Source: Candidatus Halobeggiatoa sp. HSG11 (GTDB taxonomy: Bacteria > Pseudomonadota > Gammaproteobacteria > Beggiatoales > Beggiatoaceae). Taken from it: a DNA stretch of 43,425 nucleotides. Under the pieces are notes generated by a model. It worked only from the letters and a program-made list of their open reading frames with translations. It was not told the origin of the DNA and searched no databases. The stretch is from the NCBI GenBank assembly GCA_030378105.1, contig JAUCGL010000021.1, positions 1 to 43,425 of the forward strand, given 5' to 3'. The position numbers and the translations under genes were made by a program. Below, in pieces: positions 29,147 through 41,917 of this stretch (position 1 is its first letter; each line of letters starts with the position of its first letter).

Positions 29147-32100
29147 TCAATGTCTAACAAACAACCTAAACAACAACGGAATAATGTAAAGAGTCAACAA
29201 GGTAGAAAAACCCAATCCCCAAACTATAGCCGTAGCCACTGGGCCCCACATTAAAGACTCTCCAGCTAAACCGGTTGCTAGTGAAAACAGGCTTGCCATA
29301 GTGGTCAGAGAAGTGATCAAAATAGGAATAACTCGCCGGCGAGCTGCATAAACAGTTGCATGGTTGATACTCATACCAAGCTTCAAACGGTCTCTGGCAG
29401 CAGCCATCAAAACTATAGCTGCATTAACCGCAATTCCAGTTAAAGCCACTACTCCATATAAAGTATATAAACTCAATGGGTTCTGACTGACAATAAGCCC
29501 AATAATCACTCCAATAAATGCCAATGGAACTACAGTCAACAATATCATCAAAGGTTGGAAATAGCTACGAAATTGAGCCCCTAATATCATATACATTATG
29601 CCAATTCCCATTAAAAATAAAGTCAACATTGCGTCCAAACTTTCTTGAATATCATCTAGTTCCCCAGAAAAATCTAAATTAACCTCTGGATAGACAGCTT
29701 GCAATTTCTCCTTCCATTGCCGTTGAATCATTTTATTAGCATCCACCGTATTCATTTTGGTTTTATCCAATTCTGCTTCTACTTGAATAGTGCGGCGTAA
29801 ATTATAATGACGAATTTCTGACCTAGCTCGATTGATTTTAATATGAAATAGCTCTCGCAACGGCACTGCTTGTCCATTTGGTAAGAAAAATAAATTATCC
29901 AAAAATTCATCTACTTGTTGATATTCACGTTTTGCAGCCCTAACTCTTAATTCAACCTTTTCGTTGCTATCTCTTATTTCCGTTATTAATTCACCATCAG
30001 CCATAATTGCTATAGTGCGTAACAATTCATTTGGAGAGATATTAAGTTCTTGAATCCGTTGTTGATTAAGTTTTATACTAAGTTGCATCCGACCTTGAAT
30101 ATCAGTATCACTTATGTCACTAACTCCCGGCATGGTTGCCAGCAATGCTTCCAAATCATCAGTAGCAGCTCGCAAAGTAGTAAAATCATTGCCACGCACT
30201 TTCAAGCTTATCGGTCTACCTGCTGGTGGCCCATCTTTCAACAACAAAATACTGATATTAACTGCTCCCGGAATAGCTTCAATATCAGACCGCATAGCTG
30301 CAATTATTTCTTCTCCGCTACGGCGTTGATTTTTATCGGGATTAAGACTAACTAGAACTTGTCCCCAATGGTCGCCAAATAAAACTTCCATTTCAGTAAA
30401 AGCCTGTCCTGCATAACTGGCAGTGTTGCGTAATTCAATAGGTTTTATATGAGTCAAAATACGTTGTTCTACCTGTGTGGTGAGAGCTAAAGTTTCTTTC
30501 ATATCAGCATCCGGCGACATTTCCACTGTGACATAAAAAAGCGGTAAGCTGTCCATAGCGAAGAAATTTACCTTAACCCATTTAGCTTGAAAAGCATATC
30601 CAACTCCACCTACCAGCACTACGATTAAAATAACTGCCAAATATGGATAACGTAGCATTTTTAATAAGGATTTACTGTACATATGCTGTAATTTGCTAGT
30701 GAAAGCCAAGCGTAATTTTTGGGCTTTAGATTTTTTGGTGAACTTAACATTGGCCGCTATAACGTGGGCTGGCAACATCCAATAAGCTTCAACTAAACTG
30801 ATGGCAAGAGCGGTAACTACCACAACCGGCACAACTAACATGAATTTACCGACAATTCCCGGCATCAGCATCAATGGTAAAAAGGAAGCCATAGTTGTTA
30901 AAACGGCAGTTGTTACCGGCCAAAATACCTCTCGAAGTGAACCTATTGCAGCTTCAAGGGCATCCATACCACGCACAATCCGATAATACATTGATTCTAT
31001 AACCACAACCGCATCATCCACCAACATTCCCAAACTGATAACAATACCCAGTAACACATTATTATTTAGGGTAAATCCCAGATTTGTGATAAACCAGAAA
31101 GTACCGCCGATAATAAATGGAATACCGATACAGGTCAGCAAAGACATACGCCAACCCAAAAATAGCCAAGTTATAATCAACACCATAACCAGACCTATCA
31201 AAGCGTTAGTTTGCATAATTGTTATAGCCTGCCGAGTAGAACCAGTTTGATCATCTAAAAGTTCTAATTCCAACCCAATTGGTTGCAGTAAAATATTGCG
31301 TTGTTCGATGAATTGATTAAGTTTTTCTACCAAGTCAATTGTATTAGCAGAAGCTTTCTTCATCACGGAAAAAATAACTCCCGGTTTTTGGTGAAATTTA
31401 ACCATAGTTTCTGGCTTTTCCCAACTTTGCTGGACTTGGGCTAACTGGTCTAATTGCAATTGTCCCGAAGCTGTCAAAACAATAAATTGACCCAACTTAT
31501 CTGCTTCTGTTTCAGAACCTAATAAACGCAGTAACCATTGTTGTTTGCCTATATCCAAATTACCGGCCGCTACATCACTATATAAAATTCGTATACTATC
31601 CGCTACTTGAGTTGGATTTAAACCATAATTTTGTAGTTCTTCCAATAGCAATTCAACTTGTAATTGTGGTTTATATAAACCAATTGAATCAGCTTTATGT
31701 ACAGCTCTTATCTGTTCTAAATCCTTTTTAATAAGATAGGCTTGTCGCCGTAATACTTCATCTTCTCCATTACCATTCAAAGCCAACATAGCAGTTGGAA
31801 AAGCATTGGCAGTAGTTATTTCTAATAGCAAAGGATTTTCAACTTCATCAGGAAATTCTTGGGCTGCTTTATTCTGTATTTCACGGCGTAAGTCATTTAA
31901 ACGTTTATCATATTGGCGTTCTGGAATGTCTTCAAAACGGACTAGGATAGTTGAAATACTTTCTCGACTGGAACTAGAAATAAATTTTATATCTTCAACC
32001 CGATCTATCACTTCTTCCAATACATTGGTTATTTTGCGTTCAACATCTTTGGCACTGGCTCCGGGTAATACGGTTATTACCTGTATCCAATTGAAATTTA

Positions 32101-32221
32101 TTTCGGGGTCTTTCTCTCTGGGTAGGTTCAAGTAAGAGGTTGTACCCATCACCAGTATAAGTATGAAAGCCAAATTGGCAAGTACATGATTAGATAATAA
32201 AGCTGTCAGGATTTTATTCAT
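29147..32221 (-). CDS. RND-family efflux permease (AcrB/MdtB-like)
   Basis: 1024 residues, full length for the family. N-terminal TM, large periplasmic porter domain with PGASAKDVERKITNVLE, TM bundle with the proton-relay GMLVDDAVVVIE (paired aspartates near residue 401), second porter domain, and a second TM bundle ending IPLLFRLF. Sequence style (LPREKDPEINF near the start) is that of the metal/cation or broad drug RND transporters of the CusA/MexF-like branch; the substrate is not clear. Its start overlaps the stop of the membrane-fusion gene by 1 bp (TAATG), so the two are translationally coupled. No outer-membrane TolC-type gene is beside them. Confidence 0.93.
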   Translation of the reverse strand: MNKILTALLSNHVLANLAFILILVMGTTSYLNLPREKDPEINFNWIQVITVLPGASAKDVERKITNVLEEVIDRVEDIKFISSSSRESISTILVRFEDIPERQYDKRLNDLRREIQNKAAQEFPDEVENPLLLEITTANAFPTAMLALNGNGEDEVLRRQAYLIKKDLEQIRAVHKADSIGLYKPQLQVELLLEELQNYGLNPTQVADSIRILYSDVAAGNLDIGKQQWLLRLLGSETEADKLGQFIVLTASGQLQLDQLAQVQQSWEKPETMVKFHQKPGVIFSVMKKASANTIDLVEKLNQFIEQRNILLQPIGLELELLDDQTGSTRQAITIMQTNALIGLVMVLIITWLFLGWRMSLLTCIGIPFIIGGTFWFITNLGFTLNNNVLLGIVISLGMLVDDAVVVIESMYYRIVRGMDALEAAIGSLREVFWPVTTAVLTTMASFLPLMLMPGIVGKFMLVVPVVVVTALAISLVEAYWMLPAHVIAANVKFTKKSKAQKLRLAFTSKLQHMYSKSLLKMLRYPYLAVILIVVLVGGVGYAFQAKWVKVNFFAMDSLPLFYVTVEMSPDADMKETLALTTQVEQRILTHIKPIELRNTASYAGQAFTEMEVLFGDHWGQVLVSLNPDKNQRRSGEEIIAAMRSDIEAIPGAVNISILLLKDGPPAGRPISLKVRGNDFTTLRAATDDLEALLATMPGVSDISDTDIQGRMQLSIKLNQQRIQELNISPNELLRTIAIMADGELITEIRDSNEKVELRVRAAKREYQQVDEFLDNLFFLPNGQAVPLRELFHIKINRARSEIRHYNLRRTIQVEAELDKTKMNTVDANKMIQRQWKEKLQAVYPEVNLDFSGELDDIQESLDAMLTLFLMGIGIMYMILGAQFRSYFQPLMILLTVVPLAFIGVIIGLIVSQNPLSLYTLYGVVALTGIAVNAAIVLMAAARDRLKLGMSINHATVYAARRRVIPILITSLTTMASLFSLATGLAGESLMWGPVATAIVWGLGFSTLLTLYIIPLLFRLFVRH

Positions 32222-33315
32222 TAATTGTTAAGACCTGCTAGATTAATACCTGTCAGGTTTCCAAAACCTGACAGGTCTCGGCCGGAATTAACATTACTAC
32301 AACCTTTATTTTTAACTAAATCACCAGTTTTTAATTGTCTAAAACCAGTTGTTATAACCAGTGTTTTTGCTGGTAAATCAACTACTATCGAACGTCCCGG
32401 CAAAGCTTCAGGTAATTTATGAAATTGAGCTTTATTATCCACTAATAACATCAAACCATAACTTTCATTAACTTTAAGTGAATAACGGAAAGGTATTTTT
32501 TTAGTCGTTGTTTGCCAACGTAATTGTCCTTGACTGCCGGGTAAAGGAATTTTTCCGGTTGGTTTAAGAATAATAGGTTGTAAATTTTTGTCCGCATCTA
32601 ACATAGGCAATAAAGTTTGTCGTTTAACTGGAAAAACTTGTTTATTAATATGGAGTTTTAATCTAGTTTTGGTGGTTAAATTGGCAAGCTGTTGGGCATC
32701 AAGGAAAGCCTTAATTTCTACTTTAGTTGGATTTAATAAGCTGGCAACTGGTTGGCCCGGATCAACCCATTCACCTAAATTAACCTCTCTTTGTATAATC
32801 ACACCACTGAAAGGAGCTGTTATTTTAGTTTTGCTAAGAGTGAGTTGAAGTTGTTGTTTTTGAAAATTTTGTGATTCTAATTCGGCAGTCAAACTAGCAA
32901 CTTCAGTTTTATGTTGATGCAATAATTCTTCAGATACATTGCCCCCACGATGCAATTTAGTTCTTTGTTTTAATTGATAATTTGCTAATTTAAGCCGGGC
33001 TTTAATACCTTTTATATCGGCATCCAATTGTTTAAGTTGTAATTGCCATTGACGATCATCTAATTTAAATAATACATCTCCTTTGGTTATTTTATCACCA
33101 ACTTCAATTGTTATATCAATAACTTTACCTGATATTTCGGCAGTTAGGTTAGCTAATTGCTGTGGTTTAACTTCAGCATAAGCTTGTGAATTTGCTACTG
33201 TTAGTAATGAATCTAATTGGCAAGCTTGGATTATTTTTGGAGTGGTTGCAGAAATGCTGTATTTAGGAATAAATAATAGTATTAATGCTAAATATATGTT
33301 GGTATTAAATTTCAT
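32221..33315 (-). CDS. RND membrane-fusion (HlyD-type) periplasmic adaptor
   Basis: 364 residues. Signal peptide (MKFNTNIYLALILLFIPKYSISA), barrel-sandwich hybrid halves (AEISGKVIDITIEVGDKITKGDVLFKLD and TKITAPFSGVIIQREVNLGEWV), a coiled-coil hairpin between them (about 90-145), then beta-barrel and membrane-proximal domains. It joins the inner-membrane pump to an outer-membrane channel. The C-terminus is odd: residues 347-356 (DLSGFGNLTG) are encoded by a dispersed palindrome at 32248-32276, so the natural end was probably a few residues earlier and the present tail is repeat-derived. Confidence 0.92.
   Translation of the reverse strand: MKFNTNIYLALILLFIPKYSISATTPKIIQACQLDSLLTVANSQAYAEVKPQQLANLTAEISGKVIDITIEVGDKITKGDVLFKLDDRQWQLQLKQLDADIKGIKARLKLANYQLKQRTKLHRGGNVSEELLHQHKTEVASLTAELESQNFQKQQLQLTLSKTKITAPFSGVIIQREVNLGEWVDPGQPVASLLNPTKVEIKAFLDAQQLANLTTKTRLKLHINKQVFPVKRQTLLPMLDADKNLQPIILKPTGKIPLPGSQGQLRWQTTTKKIPFRYSLKVNESYGLMLLVDNKAQFHKLPEALPGRSIVVDLPAKTLVITTGFRQLKTGDLVKNKGCSNVNSGRDLSGFGNLTGINLAGLNN
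32248..32276. repeat. Dispersed palindrome inside the 3' end of the adaptor gene
   Basis: ACCTGTCAGGTTT / AAACCTGACAGGT, a 13-bp perfect stem with loop CCA, the same loop and arm design as 2258-2290. It is in frame and translated near the protein's C-terminus. Confidence 0.85.
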
Positions 33316-33898: not shown

Positions 33899-35326
33899 TC
33901 AAAAATTTGATATATGTATTTTAGATTTATGAATACCATGATTAAGCAATATGGCTTCTAGCTCATCATTACCAGACAAATAAAATTCTGTTGAATCGGA
34001 TGCTGTTGGTAAAAATTGGCTTAATTGCTGTTCTAATTCTGTTAATTTAGTTAATGGAGTATAAACAAAATTATCTAATGCATCTTCCCATGATCTGCAT
34101 AATTTATCAAAATATTGCTCTCCCAACCAATATAAATATAAAGTTTCCGGCGTATCAGTAGAAATAGCATGTTCGATCAAACTTTTAATTGGTGCAAAAG
34201 CTTCATCTTGAGCAATAAATACAATTGGATTGTTATAACTTGATAAAACAAAATCTCCATAAGGCCCAGTAAATAAAACTGTTTGTCCTATCTGCAAGTC
34301 ATCAAACATTTTCTTGCTTAAATCAGTAGCTGTCTTTTTGACCTGAATTTGTAAATAACGTCCATCACAAGGACAACTTATGATAGGATAATCAACAGTT
34401 TCTGATTCCAATTCAAGTCTAATATTTTGACCAGCCATAAACCGTAAAGTTTTAGTTTGCGAAGTTTGTAAATGTAAAATCATCAAACTATCAGTTAATA
34501 ATTCTTTCTTTTTGACTATCGCTCGCAATTCTTGAATTGGAAGATCAGTCGGGTGTTTAGCCTCTTTAGCTTCTATAACTAAGTCAGTAATAGCAGTGTT
34601 GGAACACATTAATATGTAACCCATTTGCTTTTCATACTCACTTAATACATAGTCATGCTCACAAGTTTTTTTGACATCTCCAGAAACCAATCTAGCCTTA
34701 CAGGAGCCACAATTACCACTACTACAACCATAATTTGGTTTGAGGCCAACTCGAATTGCTGATTCTAACAATGAATCTGAACCTTCTACAAAAAATTCAT
34801 GACCACTTGGAACAAATTTTACTTGAGCTGCTACAAATCTTAAAAAAGTATCTTTAACAAATAACTTAGCTTTATTATCTGCTGAATTATTATTTTGCAA
34901 TTGCTCATTTTGCTCTAATAACCATTGATAAAAATTATTTATCTCAGTTTCTAAATTATCAGATTGTTGTAAAACTTCAACCTGTTGAATAATTGCTTTA
35001 AATAAATTATCATGCTGGTTTAATTGAAATTTTAGAGTTATTAATAGTTCACTAAATTCCTTTAAACGTGACATTAATACAGTAGAACTAGGTAAGGCAG
35101 TATCAATTTTGCCTTTATTTTTAACTGCATCCAATTTTATTTTTTTAACCTTTTCCAACATTGGATTACTATCCATATCAATAACTGGATATAAACGTAA
35201 TAAATTACTGACAGTTATCTTGCCTTCAAAAGTTTCTAATTCACCGTCATGAATATGACGTTGTAATTCGCTTCTGGAAACTCCGGCCAGACGTGCTGCA
35301 CGAGTTATGGTTAGTAATTCCTGCAT
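33899..35326 (-). CDS. HTH domain fused to 2Fe-2S ferredoxin and flavin reductase
   Basis: 475 residues. Residues 1-45 read like a MerR/excisionase-type winged helix (LTITRAARLAGVSRSELQRHIHDGEL). A helical, coiled-coil-like linker spans about 55-150. A plant-type ferredoxin domain follows with C201, C206, C209 and C241 (CSSGNCGSC...MC), a complete 2Fe-2S set. Then an FNR-like flavin domain and NAD domain (FTGPYGDF; C-terminal EFYLSGNDELEAILL). The usual RxYS/T flavin motif is replaced by DYPIIS, so FAD binding may be changed. Enzyme halves of this type reduce oxygenases; the DNA-binding end suggests a redox-sensing regulator. No partner oxygenase is nearby. The function is inferred, the architecture is seen. 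Confidence 0.82.
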   Translation of the reverse strand: MQELLTITRAARLAGVSRSELQRHIHDGELETFEGKITVSNLLRLYPVIDMDSNPMLEKVKKIKLDAVKNKGKIDTALPSSTVLMSRLKEFSELLITLKFQLNQHDNLFKAIIQQVEVLQQSDNLETEINNFYQWLLEQNEQLQNNNSADNKAKLFVKDTFLRFVAAQVKFVPSGHEFFVEGSDSLLESAIRVGLKPNYGCSSGNCGSCKARLVSGDVKKTCEHDYVLSEYEKQMGYILMCSNTAITDLVIEAKEAKHPTDLPIQELRAIVKKKELLTDSLMILHLQTSQTKTLRFMAGQNIRLELESETVDYPIISCPCDGRYLQIQVKKTATDLSKKMFDDLQIGQTVLFTGPYGDFVLSSYNNPIVFIAQDEAFAPIKSLIEHAISTDTPETLYLYWLGEQYFDKLCRSWEDALDNFVYTPLTKLTELEQQLSQFLPTASDSTEFYLSGNDELEAILLNHGIHKSKIHISNF

Positions 35327-35640: not shown

Positions 35641-37161
35641 TTAATGGCAGTGGTTCAAAGTTACCATTATTTCTTTAAAACTATTAAGTCCAGATTCCAA
35701 ATTTTCAATAATTTCTCCGGCTAATACATCAGGTTCAGGTAGGTTATCCAAATCGGTTAAGCTTTTGTCTTTGAGCCAGAATATATCTAAATTGGTTTTA
35801 TCTCTCGCCAGTATTTCTTCATAGGTGAATTTACGCCATCTACCTTCAGGTTTTTTTTCAGTCCATGTTGCTTTTCTTTTATTTCGATTTTGGGGATTGT
35901 AGCATTTAACAAATTCTGCTAAATCCTCTGTTTTCATGGGATTTTTCTTTAGGGTGTGATGAATATTGGTTCTGTAATCGTATATCCAAACTTTTTTGGT
36001 ATGTGCTGTTTTGCTGGCTGATTTGTTGTTGAAAAATAGCACGTTTGCTTTAACTCCTTGGGCATAAAAAACTCCGGTGGGAAGTCTAAGAATGGTATGG
36101 AGTTCAGTAGTTTTCATTAATTGTTTGCGTACTTCTTCCCCAGCACCTCCTTCAAATAGCACGTTGTCGGGTAATACTACAGCAGCTTCACCAGTAATTT
36201 TTAGTTGGGTTTTAATGTGTTGTAAAAAGTTGAGCTGTTTATTGGAAGTGGTTTCCCAAAAATCCTGACGGTTATAGCTTAAATTTTCTGTTTCGATTTC
36301 ACCTTCTTGATTGGTGATGGTCATACTGCTTTTTTTGCCAAAGGGCGGATTGGCTAAGACATAATCATAACGTTCACCATCATCTGAAATTAAGGCATCA
36401 TTGGGAGATAGAAAGCTTTCGCTGTCAATTTCACCAATGTTATGCAAGTACATATTCATCAGGCACATTCGCCGGGTATTGGCTACGATTTCATTGCCGT
36501 GAAAGGTGGAATTTTTTAGGAATTCTTTTTCTTCTCGGTCTAAGCTGTTATTTTCTATAATGTAATCGTAGGCAGCTAGGAAAAATCCACCGGTGCCACA
36601 AGCTGGGTCGGCAATTTTTTTCATTGGTTTGGGCTGAACGCAAGCTACCATAGTTTTGATTAATGCACGGGGGGTAAAGTATTGGCCAGCACCGCTTTTG
36701 GTATCTTCGGCATTTTTTTCTAAAAGTCCTTCGTAAATTTTTCCCTTAACGTCTGCTCCCATCATTGTCCATTGTTCGTTATTGATGAGGTTGATCACTC
36801 TTAGTAGTTTGGATGGGTCTTGAATTTTGTTTTGACTTTTAGTGAAGATTTGTCCAAGCATTCCTTTTTCAGTGGAGAGGCTGCGTAGTAATTGGACGTA
36901 GAATGATTCTAATTCTGCCCCGGTTTTGCTGGATAAGTTTTCCCAGTTGCAAATTTCACCGTTTTTAATTTGTTTGCCTTCTACATCTTTAATTTGAGGG
37001 AATTTTAAGCCTTTGTTATATGGTGGTTTATTGAGTTCGTCTGCCATTTTTAAAAATAGCAAATAGGTGATTTGTTCTAGGTAGTCGCCATAGCCGACAC
37101 CATCATCACGTAGGACATGGGCTAAATTCCAGATTTTTGATACAATTGTAGAGTCGTTCAT
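35641..37161 (-). CDS. hsdM: Type I restriction-modification DNA methyltransferase subunit
   Basis: 506 residues. Helical HsdM N-terminal domain (1-130), then the N6-adenine methyltransferase with SAM motif ADPACGTGGFF (184-194) and catalytic NPPFG (271-275), preceded by GQYFTPRAL. With HsdS it methylates the recognition site; with HsdR it cuts unmodified DNA. It lies downstream of hsdS on the same strand but 538 bp away, the gap filled with repeats. The last codons (NHCH, stop) match the CACTGCCATTAA terminus of the double-hairpin repeat family, so the C-terminus may have been altered by a repeat. Confidence 0.95.
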   Translation of the reverse strand: MNDSTIVSKIWNLAHVLRDDGVGYGDYLEQITYLLFLKMADELNKPPYNKGLKFPQIKDVEGKQIKNGEICNWENLSSKTGAELESFYVQLLRSLSTEKGMLGQIFTKSQNKIQDPSKLLRVINLINNEQWTMMGADVKGKIYEGLLEKNAEDTKSGAGQYFTPRALIKTMVACVQPKPMKKIADPACGTGGFFLAAYDYIIENNSLDREEKEFLKNSTFHGNEIVANTRRMCLMNMYLHNIGEIDSESFLSPNDALISDDGERYDYVLANPPFGKKSSMTITNQEGEIETENLSYNRQDFWETTSNKQLNFLQHIKTQLKITGEAAVVLPDNVLFEGGAGEEVRKQLMKTTELHTILRLPTGVFYAQGVKANVLFFNNKSASKTAHTKKVWIYDYRTNIHHTLKKNPMKTEDLAEFVKCYNPQNRNKRKATWTEKKPEGRWRKFTYEEILARDKTNLDIFWLKDKSLTDLDNLPEPDVLAGEIIENLESGLNSFKEIMVTLNHCH

Positions 37162-37192
37162 TTTTTTATCTCATTCCTAACGTCTTGTTGTA

Positions 37193-37230
37193 TTACCATT
37201 AAGGGCAACCATAAAGGATTGCCCCTACAT
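37193..37230 (+). repeat. Half of a double-hairpin repeat
   Basis: ACCATTAAGGGCAACC...GGATTGCCCCTAC, one of the two hairpins of the family seen at 22907 and 33544; the other half is missing. Confidence 0.65.
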
Positions 37231-37246
37231 GACATGATGATTTGTT

Positions 37247-37306
37247 CTCGTTCCCAACGTCTCGTTGGGAATGCCTACTATACCGCTCTGCGGTATTCAT
37301 TTTGGT
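37247..37306 (+). repeat. TTCCCAACG double-hairpin repeat, copy 2
   Basis: Same as 35433-35494 with one base shorter loops (CGTTGGGAA and ACCGCTCTGCGGT). Confidence 0.75.
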
Positions 37307-37362
37307 TTAATTCGTGGCAGAGCCATTTAAATTAGGTATTGAAGGTAGAACCTTGATACCAG

Positions 37363-37668
37363 AAAAAATAAATAATGTTAATCATTAATTTAGAATGTAG
37401 GTCGGGTTAGATTATTGAGCGAAGCGAGATAACGTAACCCGACTAAATTTACAATGATTGATGTTGGGTTACGCTTCGCTAACCCAACCTACATTATTTT
37501 GATAATAATTGTTTCTCGTTAAAAAATAAATAATGTTAATCATTAATTTAGAATGTAGGTCGGGTTAGATTATTGAGCAAAGCGAGATAACGTAACCCGA
37601 CTAAATTTACAATGATTAGTGTTGGGTTACGCTTCGCTAACCCAACCTACATTATTTTGATAATAATT
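37363..37668 (+). repeat. Two tandem copies of a 158-bp palindromic repeat unit
   Basis: Units at 37363-37520 and 37521-37668. Each begins AAAAAATAAATAATGTTAAT and holds AATGTAGGTCGGGTTAG and, inverted, CTAACCCAACCTACATT, plus hairpins around GCGAAGCGAG and GGGTTACGCTTCGCTAACCC. The copies differ at only a few bases, so the duplication is recent. Confidence 0.9.
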
Positions 37669-37699
37669 ATAAAGTTTCTTAATGCAAATGACAGTAACT

Positions 37700-38947
37700 C
37701 TACTGGGTTGCTTTTATTTTTTTGAGTAGTTCGGAGGCTGGTTCATAATCTTTATCCTGTTTACATTTTTCTAATTCGGTTTTGTTGAGTAATTTTCCTT
37801 CAAAGGCTTTTTTAAGGATGCTTTGACGAAAGGAGTTTGATTTTTCAAGGCTTTCTGTGATGGTTTGTTCAAGTTTATTGCATACGGATAGGCGAGTTTC
37901 TATTTCTTTAATTATTTGATGTTGTTCTTTTAAAGATGGTAATGGAATAATTTGAGAAAAAATATCATTGTTTCTAACAGCAGGATAAGAAGTTCCTCTT
38001 TGTAATTTACTTAAAGGCTCTAAAAAACCTTGATAAATTGTAATGAAAAATATATATTTTGGATTTAATAAATCTTTTTTTCCCCTTATTACTGTGAATC
38101 CAGATGATGCAATTTCACCATCGTATATAGGATTTAAAACTTGAGCAATATTTTTTAAATATGTTCTTACGGTTGAAAATAATATATCTCCAACTTGTAC
38201 AATTTGCTGTGCTCTTGATGGAGCATCTTGCCAAGTGTATTCTTTATGACTAATAATTTTATTGGCTTTATTATCAATTCCTCCTATGTCTAAATAGAGT
38301 AAAGGTTTATTTAAAGCCATTTCTTTTCTTTTTATCTTTATTGCTCTTTCACAAACATCGCCTAGTTCAACTTTTTTAAACTCACCATCAAAAGCTTTTT
38401 TAAGCACTGCTTGCCGATAGATTTTTAATTGTTCTTGAGCAGTTTTCAGGTCAGCAATTCCCTTGTCTAAATCACTGAATAAGGTTTCTATTTTGGCAAC
38501 AATGGCTCGTTGTTCTGGGAGGGAAGCTAATTTAAGCGGAATCTGTTTTAACTTGCCTTGTGTTAATTTTAAGCGAGTTGTCCCAGATACATAGTTCTTA
38601 TAATTAAAACAATTTAAGTAGTATAATAGAAAATCGTTGTTAAACTTTGATTTTAATATATGAGCATGGTTATTTACCCAAGTTTTGCCAGATATTTTAT
38701 ATGCAACATCTTTACTGTGATCCAAAAATGGAGCTGCATCCTCACCAATTAAAATAAACTCACCATCAGTTAAATACTCATCTATATATCCTACCTGTCC
38801 AGTAGCTCCATAATACGGAAATAATTTTTCTTTAGAAATTCCACTTATTCTATTATTTCTTTCTCTTGAATTTATTGGCTTTCGTAAATTATCTAAAATT
38901 TTACAACCAATCTCAAGCTCGCATTCAACCCAATCATCTCTCATCAC
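37700..38947 (-). CDS. hsdS: Type I restriction specificity subunit
   Basis: 415 residues. Two target-recognition domains (about 8-135 and 195-345), each followed by a conserved helical spacer: LASLPEQRAIVAKIETLFSDLD (about 140-161) and PLPSLKEQHQIIKEIETRL (about 345-363). It sets the DNA sequence recognised by the methylase and nuclease complexes. The start overlaps the end of hsdR by 4 bp (ATGA), so it is translated with it. The stop is beside a repeat terminus. Its conserved regions differ clearly from those of the unpaired HsdS at 20552. Confidence 0.93.
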   Translation of the reverse strand: MMRDDWVECELEIGCKILDNLRKPINSRERNNRISGISKEKLFPYYGATGQVGYIDEYLTDGEFILIGEDAAPFLDHSKDVAYKISGKTWVNNHAHILKSKFNNDFLLYYLNCFNYKNYVSGTTRLKLTQGKLKQIPLKLASLPEQRAIVAKIETLFSDLDKGIADLKTAQEQLKIYRQAVLKKAFDGEFKKVELGDVCERAIKIKRKEMALNKPLLYLDIGGIDNKANKIISHKEYTWQDAPSRAQQIVQVGDILFSTVRTYLKNIAQVLNPIYDGEIASSGFTVIRGKKDLLNPKYIFFITIYQGFLEPLSKLQRGTSYPAVRNNDIFSQIIPLPSLKEQHQIIKEIETRLSVCNKLEQTITESLEKSNSFRQSILKKAFEGKLLNKTELEKCKQDKDYEPASELLKKIKATQ

Positions 38948-41742
38948 GCCGCCAACACCTCATTTAATTCATCAATAATTCCATTCATATCATCGCCAAA
39001 CAACTGAAACATCTTACCCCGTCCACCTTGAGCATCAAAAGGCGTATAATCCAAATCATCAACCTCAATATGATAACTACTCACCACATGATCCTTTATC
39101 AACCTCAACCAATCCAACTGCTCAGAAGAAAAACGATTATGATCCCCAGAATGCTGCCTAAACACCCAATTCTGAAAATTCCTATCAACTACCTTATCAT
39201 AAGACTTCAAATCCTTATCAATACCACAAACCAACCGAATCAAAGAAACCAAAGCCGTCAACTCATCCTTAGGAGCCTCAGACTGCACATCATCAATAGC
39301 AACATAAGCCTGCCACACATTATAAGGCATTAACAAAGGTCGCTCAAGCTTTAGCTTCTCAAAAACCTCCTTTATCATCTTAAAAGTAACATCCCTACGA
39401 CTATTCGGCTGATTATAAAAAATACTCAAAGCCCTAATTTCATCCTTATTAACCTCCAAATACTCCGTAAAATCCTTCACAATCGCATTAGCCTTATCCA
39501 AAGAAGTTTTATCCCACTCAGACTTAATCACCTCATCAATATTAACACTATCAATAATTTGCTCATACTCCTTCCGCACATTCTCCAAATAATCATTCAC
39601 CTTACCATTAAAACAACTCGCAGCCTCTGAAATCAACAGCTTTTTAGCCTCATCCCTAACCTGCTCAACCTTCTCAGGCGTTTTCTCATCCGAAGGAATA
39701 ACTTTTAAAACCTCCTCCGATTTCCTATCTATCTCATCCGGATCAAAAGCAGAAATTAACTGTTTAGTCATTTGTTTAAGACTTTTACCACCAGTTTTAA
39801 CTAACAAATTATCCTTTTCCTGCTCTGTAATTTGATTATCTAACCTAATCAACCTATTAGCCAACGACAAAAACAAATCCTCATCTTCAACGCCCACTGT
39901 AACAGCACCCAGCAAATCCTTTAACGGTACTGAATGCTTACGCTCCAAAGGCCGACTATCAGTTTTTTTCGACTTCATAGCCCCAACCGCATCAACCATC
40001 ACAAAATGGGTTTTACTCCGTGCAGTTTTAGTCACAAGTTGCAAAGAATCCTCAGAAATAGTCCGAGTACCACGCCCTTTCATCTGCTCAAAATAATTAA
40101 TACTTTTCACATCCCGCATAAACAACAAAACTTCCAAAGGCTTAACATCCGTTCCGGTAGCAATCATATCAACTGTCACCACAATCCGAGGCTCATAAGA
40201 ATTCCGAAAACGATTCAACACCGATTTAGGGTCTTCATCAATTTTATAAGTCATCTTTTTACAAAACTCATTGCCCTCATCAAACTCTTCCCGAATAATA
40301 TTAATAATATCATCAGCATGACTATCAGTTTTAGCAAATACCAAAGTTTTAGGCACTTCATATTCACCCTTTTCATCAATTCGATTAGGGAAAATCTCAA
40401 TTTTTAAAGCTCGTTTATATTCCCGAATGATATTCCGAATCTGACTGAGATTAACCACCTTTTTATCCAAATCATTTTTAACATATTTAGTATCTTCATC
40501 CTCCTGTTGCCAACGCTTGGCACGAGTCAATTTATCTCGCCTATCAACATACCAACCCGCTTTAACAGTATCCCCCTGTTGTGAAATCCTCGTTTCAATA
40601 GTGTACACATCATAAGGCACATTAACCCCATCCGTTACCGATTCCTCATAAGTATACTGACCCACCACATTTTCATTAAAAAACCCAAAAGTGCGTTTAT
40701 CTGGAGTCGCTGTTAAACCAATCAAAAAGGCATCAAAATAATCCAAAACCTGTTTCCACAGATTATAAATAGAACGATGGCACTCATCAATCACAATAAA
40801 ATCAAACTGTTCAATAGGAACTTTGCCATTATATTCCACTGGAACAGCCTTTTTATTACCTTGCTGTTGCATCCAAGTATTTTCCGCCGGATTTTCCTGT
40901 TCAGCATTTTCATCCAAATCCTCACCTTTTAATATGGAATAAAGCCGTTGAATGGTGGAAATACAAACCTGACTATCAGAAGATATATAACTGGAAGCGA
41001 GCCTTTGAACATTATACAATTCAGTAAATTTACGATTATCATCAGTTGGTTGATAAGTCATAAATGCTTGTTCAGCCTGTTCACCAAGATTTTTAGTGTC
41101 AACCAAAAACAAAATCCGTTTTGCCCCAGCATATTTTAACAAACGATAAATAAAAGTAGCTGCCGTGAAAGTTTTACCAGCACCGGTCGCCATTTGGATT
41201 AAAGCACGGGGTCTGTTCTTTTTAAAGGATTTTTCCAGATTTTCGATAGCAACTATCTGAGCAGGTCTTAAACCAGTTTGGTCTAAATGAGGAATATCTA
41301 AAAACCGTTCCCTTAAACTTTTGGGACTTTTTAACCAATTGGCCAAAGTTGTTGGTTTATGAAAACTGAAAACAGCACGAGACCTAGCTTTATTATCCCT
41401 ATAATCAGTAAATTTAGTCACCGTACCAGTGCTTTCATAAACAAAAGGCAGGGGATCGTTATCAAGGTATTTTAATTTTGCACTAGCATATTTAGCCGAC
41501 TGCTCTTCAACAGCATTTAATTTATAGCCATCATCTGCTTTTTTTGCCTCAATGATGCCCACTGGTTTTTTGTCGACAAAAAGTACATAATCAGCCGGCC
41601 CAGCATTGGTTTGATATTCTCTAACCGCCACACCTTTATTGGCAGTTAAATCAATATCCTGTTTAGACTGAACGAGCCATTCGGCTGCAACCAGCATCTT
41701 ATCAATATTATCACGAGCTATTTGTTCGGGAGTTTTATTCAT
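38944..41742 (-). CDS. hsdR: Type I restriction endonuclease motor subunit
   Basis: 932 residues from the ATG at 41742, which has AGGA 6 bases upstream. The frame also opens at 41814, but those codons lie in a palindromic element. PD-(D/E)xK nuclease with D51, E65 and K67 (GPADYVLF...IIEAKK); SF2 motor with Walker A ATGAGKT (185-191), a DECH box (319-322) and GLTATPDKR; helical C-terminal domain like EcoEI R. It translocates and cuts unmethylated DNA with HsdM/HsdS. First gene of hsdR-S-M. The 3' half, about 38950-40000, uses mostly G- or T-ending codons, unlike hsdM. Confidence 0.95.
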   Translation of the reverse strand: MNKTPEQIARDNIDKMLVAAEWLVQSKQDIDLTANKGVAVREYQTNAGPADYVLFVDKKPVGIIEAKKADDGYKLNAVEEQSAKYASAKLKYLDNDPLPFVYESTGTVTKFTDYRDNKARSRAVFSFHKPTTLANWLKSPKSLRERFLDIPHLDQTGLRPAQIVAIENLEKSFKKNRPRALIQMATGAGKTFTAATFIYRLLKYAGAKRILFLVDTKNLGEQAEQAFMTYQPTDDNRKFTELYNVQRLASSYISSDSQVCISTIQRLYSILKGEDLDENAEQENPAENTWMQQQGNKKAVPVEYNGKVPIEQFDFIVIDECHRSIYNLWKQVLDYFDAFLIGLTATPDKRTFGFFNENVVGQYTYEESVTDGVNVPYDVYTIETRISQQGDTVKAGWYVDRRDKLTRAKRWQQEDEDTKYVKNDLDKKVVNLSQIRNIIREYKRALKIEIFPNRIDEKGEYEVPKTLVFAKTDSHADDIINIIREEFDEGNEFCKKMTYKIDEDPKSVLNRFRNSYEPRIVVTVDMIATGTDVKPLEVLLFMRDVKSINYFEQMKGRGTRTISEDSLQLVTKTARSKTHFVMVDAVGAMKSKKTDSRPLERKHSVPLKDLLGAVTVGVEDEDLFLSLANRLIRLDNQITEQEKDNLLVKTGGKSLKQMTKQLISAFDPDEIDRKSEEVLKVIPSDEKTPEKVEQVRDEAKKLLISEAASCFNGKVNDYLENVRKEYEQIIDSVNIDEVIKSEWDKTSLDKANAIVKDFTEYLEVNKDEIRALSIFYNQPNSRRDVTFKMIKEVFEKLKLERPLLMPYNVWQAYVAIDDVQSEAPKDELTALVSLIRLVCGIDKDLKSYDKVVDRNFQNWVFRQHSGDHNRFSSEQLDWLRLIKDHVVSSYHIEVDDLDYTPFDAQGGRGKMFQLFGDDMNGIIDELNEVLAA

Positions 41743-41770
41743 GTTGTGTCCTAAAAAATAAGAGTTAATG

Positions 41771-41917
41771 GCATCCTTCAAAAGCGGTTGACAGTTGTTT
41801 CGGGAATGGAACAAAGTGGATTTCCCGAAATGATTGCTAGATATGGGTTTCGGGAAATCCGTTTCACTCCATTCCCGAAATAACTGTTCACTACTTTTGC
41901 GTTAATATGAAGGATGC
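41771..41917. mobile_element. 147-bp palindromic element upstream of hsdR
   Basis: Ends GCATCCTTCA (41771-41780) and TGAAGGATGC (41908-41917) are exact inverted repeats. Inside is an inverted pair of 33-bp arms (41798-41830 and 41848-41880), each itself bounded by TTTCGGGAA and TTCCCGAAA, with a 17-bp loop; 28 of 33 positions pair. It covers the likely hsdR leader or promoter, so the RNA would start with or near a long hairpin. Confidence 0.8.

Follow-up and report, generated by a model that had tools for sequence, protein, structure and literature searches.

In the window, a stretch of 43,425 nucleotides from Candidatus Halobeggiatoa sp. HSG11 (contig JAUCGL010000021.1), we found a gene encoding a predicted winged helix-turn-helix (HTH), a coiled coil, a plant-type [2Fe-2S] ferredoxin and an FNR-like reductase in one chain (Table 1). 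This protein is widely conserved in sulfur-oxidising bacteria and apparently undescribed; its architecture was not described in the open papers searched. We lean towards reading it as a redox-responsive regulator of the DNA-binding type in the sulfur-oxidation network of the reverse dissimilatory sulfite reductase (Dsr). The domain order, the conservation of the parts, the loss of the NAD(P)H motif, the history of the gene tree and the link to dsr genes were computed.

Pfam searches with the 475-aa protein placed Fer2 at residues 173-241 (E 9e-9) and FAD_binding_6 at residues 270-359 (E 6e-8). An AlphaFold2 model of the whole protein, built from 26 family members, showed the HTH, a linker helix, the long helices and the ferredoxin and FNR-like folds with a mean pLDDT of 85.6. 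In Foldseek the C-terminal half resembled T4moF, BenC and the carbazole dioxygenase reductase, and the matches of T4moF and BenC to this second half had E-values of 1e-22 to 1e-25. The original prediction of an HTH, a coiled linker, a complete ferredoxin and an FNR-like reductase in a single chain was borne out.

Table 1. Features of the fusion gene, with positions in the window.
Feature	Position	Strand	Basis
Whole gene, HTH / coiled coil / [2Fe-2S] ferredoxin / FNR-like fusion	33899..35326	(-)	ORF, 475 aa, ATG start; Pfam; AlphaFold2
Winged HTH (predicted), residues 4-48	35183..35317	(-)	Pfam, conservation, AlphaFold2, Foldseek
Predicted recognition helix, residues 18-26	35249..35275	(-)	Module-only model and family alignment
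Coiled-coil helices (predicted), residues 81-145	34892..35086	(-)	AlphaFold2 models and 3.5-residue periodicity
Plant-type [2Fe-2S] ferredoxin domain, residues 165-258, C201-x4-C206-x2-C209-x31-C241	34553..34834	(-)	Pfam, alignment
FAD-binding-type barrel, residues 264-360, RxYS eroded to V-D-Y-P	34247..34537	(-)	Pfam, Foldseek, motif comparison
Cys-Pro-Cys, residues 318-320	34367..34375	(-)	Alignment and pattern search
NAD-domain-like C-terminus, residues 365-475	33902..34234	(-)	Pfam, AlphaFold2, Foldseek
NAD(P)H glycine motif position, Q-D-E-A-F-A-P replacing GGxGxxP	34190..34210	(-)	Motif comparison
Family-specific motif Y..(N)LCR[SA]W.DA	34079..34114	(-)	Alignment

The same fusion had been proposed for a search in other sulfur bacteria, and we found 112 homologous fusions in the sampled loci, distributed over purple sulfur bacteria, relatives of Beggiatoa and Betaproteobacteria. 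Relatives of some kind were present in 201 of 369 sampled genomes of the class, several dozen of them full-length fusions. A scan of contigs with the single protein as query gave no match; the scan with an alignment succeeded and identified holders in Allochromatium, Thiocapsa, Thiohalocapsa, Halochromatium, Thiomargarita, Thioploca and Marithrix, and further in Sedimenticola, Gallionellaceae and Burkholderiales. The fusion is not due to chance. The HTH was the best-conserved part of the family with a mean of 3.08 bits per column, followed by the ferredoxin (Fer2) with 2.95, the FAD and NAD parts with 2.4 and the linker with 1.9.

All four cluster cysteines (C201, C206, C209 and C241) were invariant among 26 aligned fusions and form the plant-type motif CX4CX2CX(about 30)C. 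The flavin motif RxYS, already predicted to be replaced, does read V-D-Y-P in the window protein, where it is followed by I-I-S-C-P-C, and its Arg was gone in 78 of 106 fusions. None of 110 fusions showed GGxG at the NAD(P)H motif; GGTG was mostly retained in the sister group of ordinary reductases. A Cys-Pro-Cys (C318-P319-C320) was also invariant in the 26 aligned fusions. By pattern search it occurred in 106 of 110 fused proteins, in all 8 split ones and in 29 of 36 unfused ones; these 36 include six of a GGTG/TGTG-type outgroup. Lying just past the position of the flavin motif, Cys-Pro-Cys marks the whole clade of Dsr-linked reductases and is missing from relatives of the GGTG type. A redox-active or metal-binding role is possible. 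A further family-specific motif of the LCRSW type contained the invariant residues Y405, R411, W413 and A416, with C410 conserved in at least 90%. The original prediction overlooked both the lost NAD(P)H motif and the invariant Cys-Pro-Cys, and its claim that the protein carries its own electron chain was weakened, with the NAD(P)H motif gone in 110/110 fusions and RxYS in most. This chain looks disabled, and electrons probably come from a partner protein. Judged by its motifs, the protein would not be a functional reductase of the BenC type.

An HTH fold at the N-terminus was likewise predicted from the structure models. A module-only AlphaFold2 model (126 members) gave the elements of a winged HTH, namely beta4-6, H7-14, H18-26, beta36-38 and H39-45, with a pLDDT of 88-97 in the HTH blocks. 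The closest folds to residues 1-55 in Foldseek were Xis (probability 1.00), BldC (0.99) and RacA (0.93); NmlR and SoxR matched over longer stretches but with lower probability. Most matches of the head were DNA binders, and their E-values were modest (0.03 and up) because the HTH domain is small. HTH_17 was found at residues 4-33 of the window protein with an E-value of 0.0014 and a score of 19.3-21.4 bits, under Pfam's own cut-off of 27, and matched 37 of 126 family members at E <= 0.01. The recognition helix was basic throughout the family alignment (median net charge +3), with R18 conserved in 96% and Q22 in 97% of members, and with K or R at positions 23, 24 and 26 in 62-78%. The window protein carries R, H and H at these positions, and its helix (R-S-E-L-Q-R-H-I-H) is less basic than that of the family. 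The wing reads T-F-E-G, with E or D at position 34 in 98% of the family, and the Arg-rich basic wing of the MerR type is missing. The fold and the basic recognition helix suggest that the head may bind DNA; the missing basic wing residues also make binding of a partner in place of DNA possible. The protein is a candidate rather than a proven member of the MerR family. Its predicted fold is that of a winged HTH; the basic wing is missing, and the score stays under the Pfam cut-off.

Behind the head, AlphaFold2 predicted two long helices at residues 81-121 (41 residues) and 125-145. A clean hydrophobic repeat of 3.5 residues ran along the long helix in the whole aligned family, a periodicity that identifies this predicted helix as a coiled coil.

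The head and coil also occurred as a gene of their own. Stand-alone HTH-coil genes of about 145 aa were found in 31 sampled loci of about 30 genomes. Since these genes exist, we rejected the idea that the head is a mere structural cap, which the original prediction had named as the finding that would speak against it. In eight loci an unfused reductase followed directly after the HTH-coil gene in the same direction, the gaps measuring anything between a few bases and some tens. Eight genomes encoded an HTH-coil without a reductase of the Cys-Pro-Cys (CPC) type at the threshold used. A small conserved gene resembling antitoxins of the Xre/MbcA/ParS type, a relative of which gave a weak Pfam score, lay just before the stand-alone HTH-coil gene in loci L166, L167, L168, L172 and L174. 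The same lineages had a second small gene nearby without a family match. Such small genes beside module loci were local to some lineages.

In a quick tree with SH-aLRT support only, calculated with the window sequence left out, the CPC family formed one clade against ordinary reductases (support 100). The fusions were essentially one group inside this clade, requiring two changes, with split and unfused forms adjoining. The fusion seems to have arisen about once, with one main fused clade nested among split and unfused forms.

A link to sulfur oxidation was apparent from gene content. We scored dsrB in 340 genomes, counting matches above the curated cut-off as well as four fragments. It was present in 57/62 genomes with the HTH module vs 54/278 others (Fisher p 1e-27, ancestry ignored). 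The module-bearing genomes spanned 33 families, all but one of which contained a dsrB-positive genome. In a later phylum-wide sample all four strong new module matches came from genomes with dsrB, one of them from another class. Five fusion genomes had an absent or weak dsrB match; four of these were 72-86% complete. Unfused relatives ended the dsr operon (dsrABEFHCMKLJOPNRS) in four genomes (G015, G042, G088 and G183), 17-48 bp past the presumed dsrS, which has no family model and was named by its position following dsrR, an IscA-like gene. Another unfused relative lay near the presumed dsrS in G247. In G596 the fused gene itself was found 12 bp after a TauD-like gene divergent from dsrAB. 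A TauD/TfdA-like dioxygenase gene was a recurring divergent neighbour of dsrA (e.g. L213:1-907, L214:18572-19001 and L321:6466-8532). In one further locus (L070 of G034), inspected by eye, an unfused CPC-type reductase followed a DsrC/TusE-like gene and genes resembling those of nitrate reductase, which adds a further sulfur-relay setting away from dsr.

No oxygenase partner was predicted near the gene, and this held. By eye, HsdM-, HsdS- and HsdR-like genes of a type I restriction-modification set lay directly upstream of the fusion gene (window 35641-41814), and genes for an RND-type efflux pump and a membrane-fusion protein lay downstream (window 29147-33315). Across the 112 loci the fused gene had no conserved neighbour, the top recurrence being 13/112, and no oxygenase genes were found. 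This lack of conserved neighbours fits a trans-acting factor. A search for operators in 122 upstream regions of module genes found no dyad or k-mer enriched over shuffles. Most of the dsr-bearing genomes examined from this class shared a conserved 16-bp palindrome (TATCCC-N4-GGGATA) that precedes the start codon of dsrA by about 130-360 bp, with 0-2 mismatches in 65/86 loci (e.g. L228, L229, L234, L236, L257 and L286), compared to a best of about 4 in shuffled sequence. Genomes that have dsr but no HTH module carried it just as often, and it was missing in the bacterial family to which the window belongs. We rejected it as operator of the fusion protein for these reasons; it is probably the operator of another dsr regulator.

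The closest precedent was found in ThnY of Sphingopyxis granuli TFA, a co-activator of tetralin degradation in which a ferredoxin with an FNR-like reductase has turned regulator (PMC3771892, PMC6563040). In ThnY the first two glycines of GGxGxxP are replaced by Asn and the Pro by Ser; ThnA3, a ferredoxin, reduces the protein whereas NAD(P)H does not, and ThnY acts via the LysR protein ThnR (PMC3771892, PMC6563040). In ThnY as in the fusion, the glycine motif for NAD(P)H is eroded and the [2Fe-2S] ligands are intact (PMC3771892), and each protein is kin to reductases from the kind of pathway that it controls or, for the fusion, would control. They differ in that ThnY has no HTH, keeps RxYS and serves a catabolic dioxygenase pathway, whereas the fusion has its own HTH, an eroded RxYS and a link to sulfur oxidation. 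Reductases of the BenC, T4moF and carbazole type, the best sequence and fold matches of the fusion, have the same order of ferredoxin, FAD barrel and NAD domain but, opposite to the fusion, intact RxYS and GGxGxxP motifs and no HTH-coil. Regulators of the SoxR/MerR type resemble it in their order of winged HTH, coiled-coil helix and sensor for redox state or a ligand. SoxR uses a [2Fe-2S] cluster held in a short C-terminal cysteine motif, unlike the fusion with its cluster in a ferredoxin domain and its missing MerR basic wing. Xis/HTH_17 proteins and BldC are closest to the head in fold; they are short, bind DNA and lack a sensor, and the head differs in its score under the Pfam cut-off and its T-F-E-G wing. 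The fusion might represent a ferredoxin-reductase-derived regulator in a new form, with its own HTH.

CbpM holds CbpA by a MerR-like fold. By analogy, the fusion could be a Dsr-linked electron-transfer protein that uses its HTH-coil for docking to, or dimerisation with, another protein and not to bind DNA. The position of unfused relatives in the dsr operon after the presumed dsrS, the wing without basic residues and the presence of the CbpM-CbpA complex (3ucs) among the Foldseek matches of the head are in line with this, and the split pairs are equally compatible with a two-subunit complex. We nevertheless think it unlikely, given the eight genomes with an HTH-coil but no CPC-type reductase, the conserved and basic recognition helix, the predominance of DNA binders among the fold matches and the lack of a conserved partner gene.

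A self-sufficient redox switch as originally proposed, passing NAD(P)H electrons through its own flavin and cluster, would agree with the three reductase-type domains and the well-predicted barrel and NAD-like fold. It is quite improbable against the loss of GGxGxxP in all fusions and the erosion of RxYS in most, as in ThnY the loss of the same motif accompanies absent reduction by NAD(P)H (PMC6563040). Alternatively, the protein might regulate something unrelated, with the link to dsr reflecting shared ancestry or the lifestyle of autotrophic sulfur or iron oxidisers. The fused gene was indeed away from dsr in the genome of the window and most others, the dsrA palindrome was rejected as its operator, and RuBisCO was also present in 9/12 genomes checked. 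The dsr linkage of the fused gene in G596 and of unfused relatives in several families argues against this, as does the tracking of dsrB by the module across many families, and we regard it as improbable.

A redox switch for transcription remained the best reading in view of the strongly conserved HTH, the HTH-coil genes that stand alone, the dsr link and the example of ThnY, even though the claim of an electron chain of its own was weakened. Cluster cysteines retained alongside eroded RxYS and GGxG would follow the ThnY pattern, and we counted this for a regulator. Counted against it were the wing without MerR basic residues and the less basic recognition helix of the window protein, the lack of a shared upstream motif, the rejection of the dsrA palindrome as its operator, and a dsrB co-occurrence that ignores ancestry and includes the five exceptional fusion genomes. 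In this regulator the coiled coil would dimerise the HTH, and the [2Fe-2S] cluster, perhaps with flavin, would draw its electrons from a ferredoxin or a carrier linked to Dsr instead of from NAD(P)H. Reduction might then alter the hold of the dimer on DNA or a partner, and expression would track the electron load of sulfur oxidation. The protein seems to have originated from a Dsr-linked reductase that was at first paired with a neighbouring HTH-coil gene and later fused to it about once. More tentatively, the protein could be a one-component regulator, in which an HTH joined to a former Dsr electron-transfer protein senses how far Dsr-linked carriers are reduced and tunes sulfur-oxidation genes directly.

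To our knowledge, the control of Dsr-dependent oxidative sulfur metabolism and the sensing of its electron load are poorly understood. A study of dsr transcription exists for Allochromatium (Grimm et al. 2010, cited in PMC3368242), and the open papers searched held no account of a comparable regulator. On the more tentative reading, purple sulfur bacteria, Beggiatoa relatives and Betaproteobacteria would share a regulator built from the redox hardware of the pathway itself. The family would also add a second and independent example of a ferredoxin reductase that became a regulator, this one equipped with an HTH. The family represents a defined regulator candidate that is found in many isolates, including Allochromatium, Thiocapsa and Sedimenticola.
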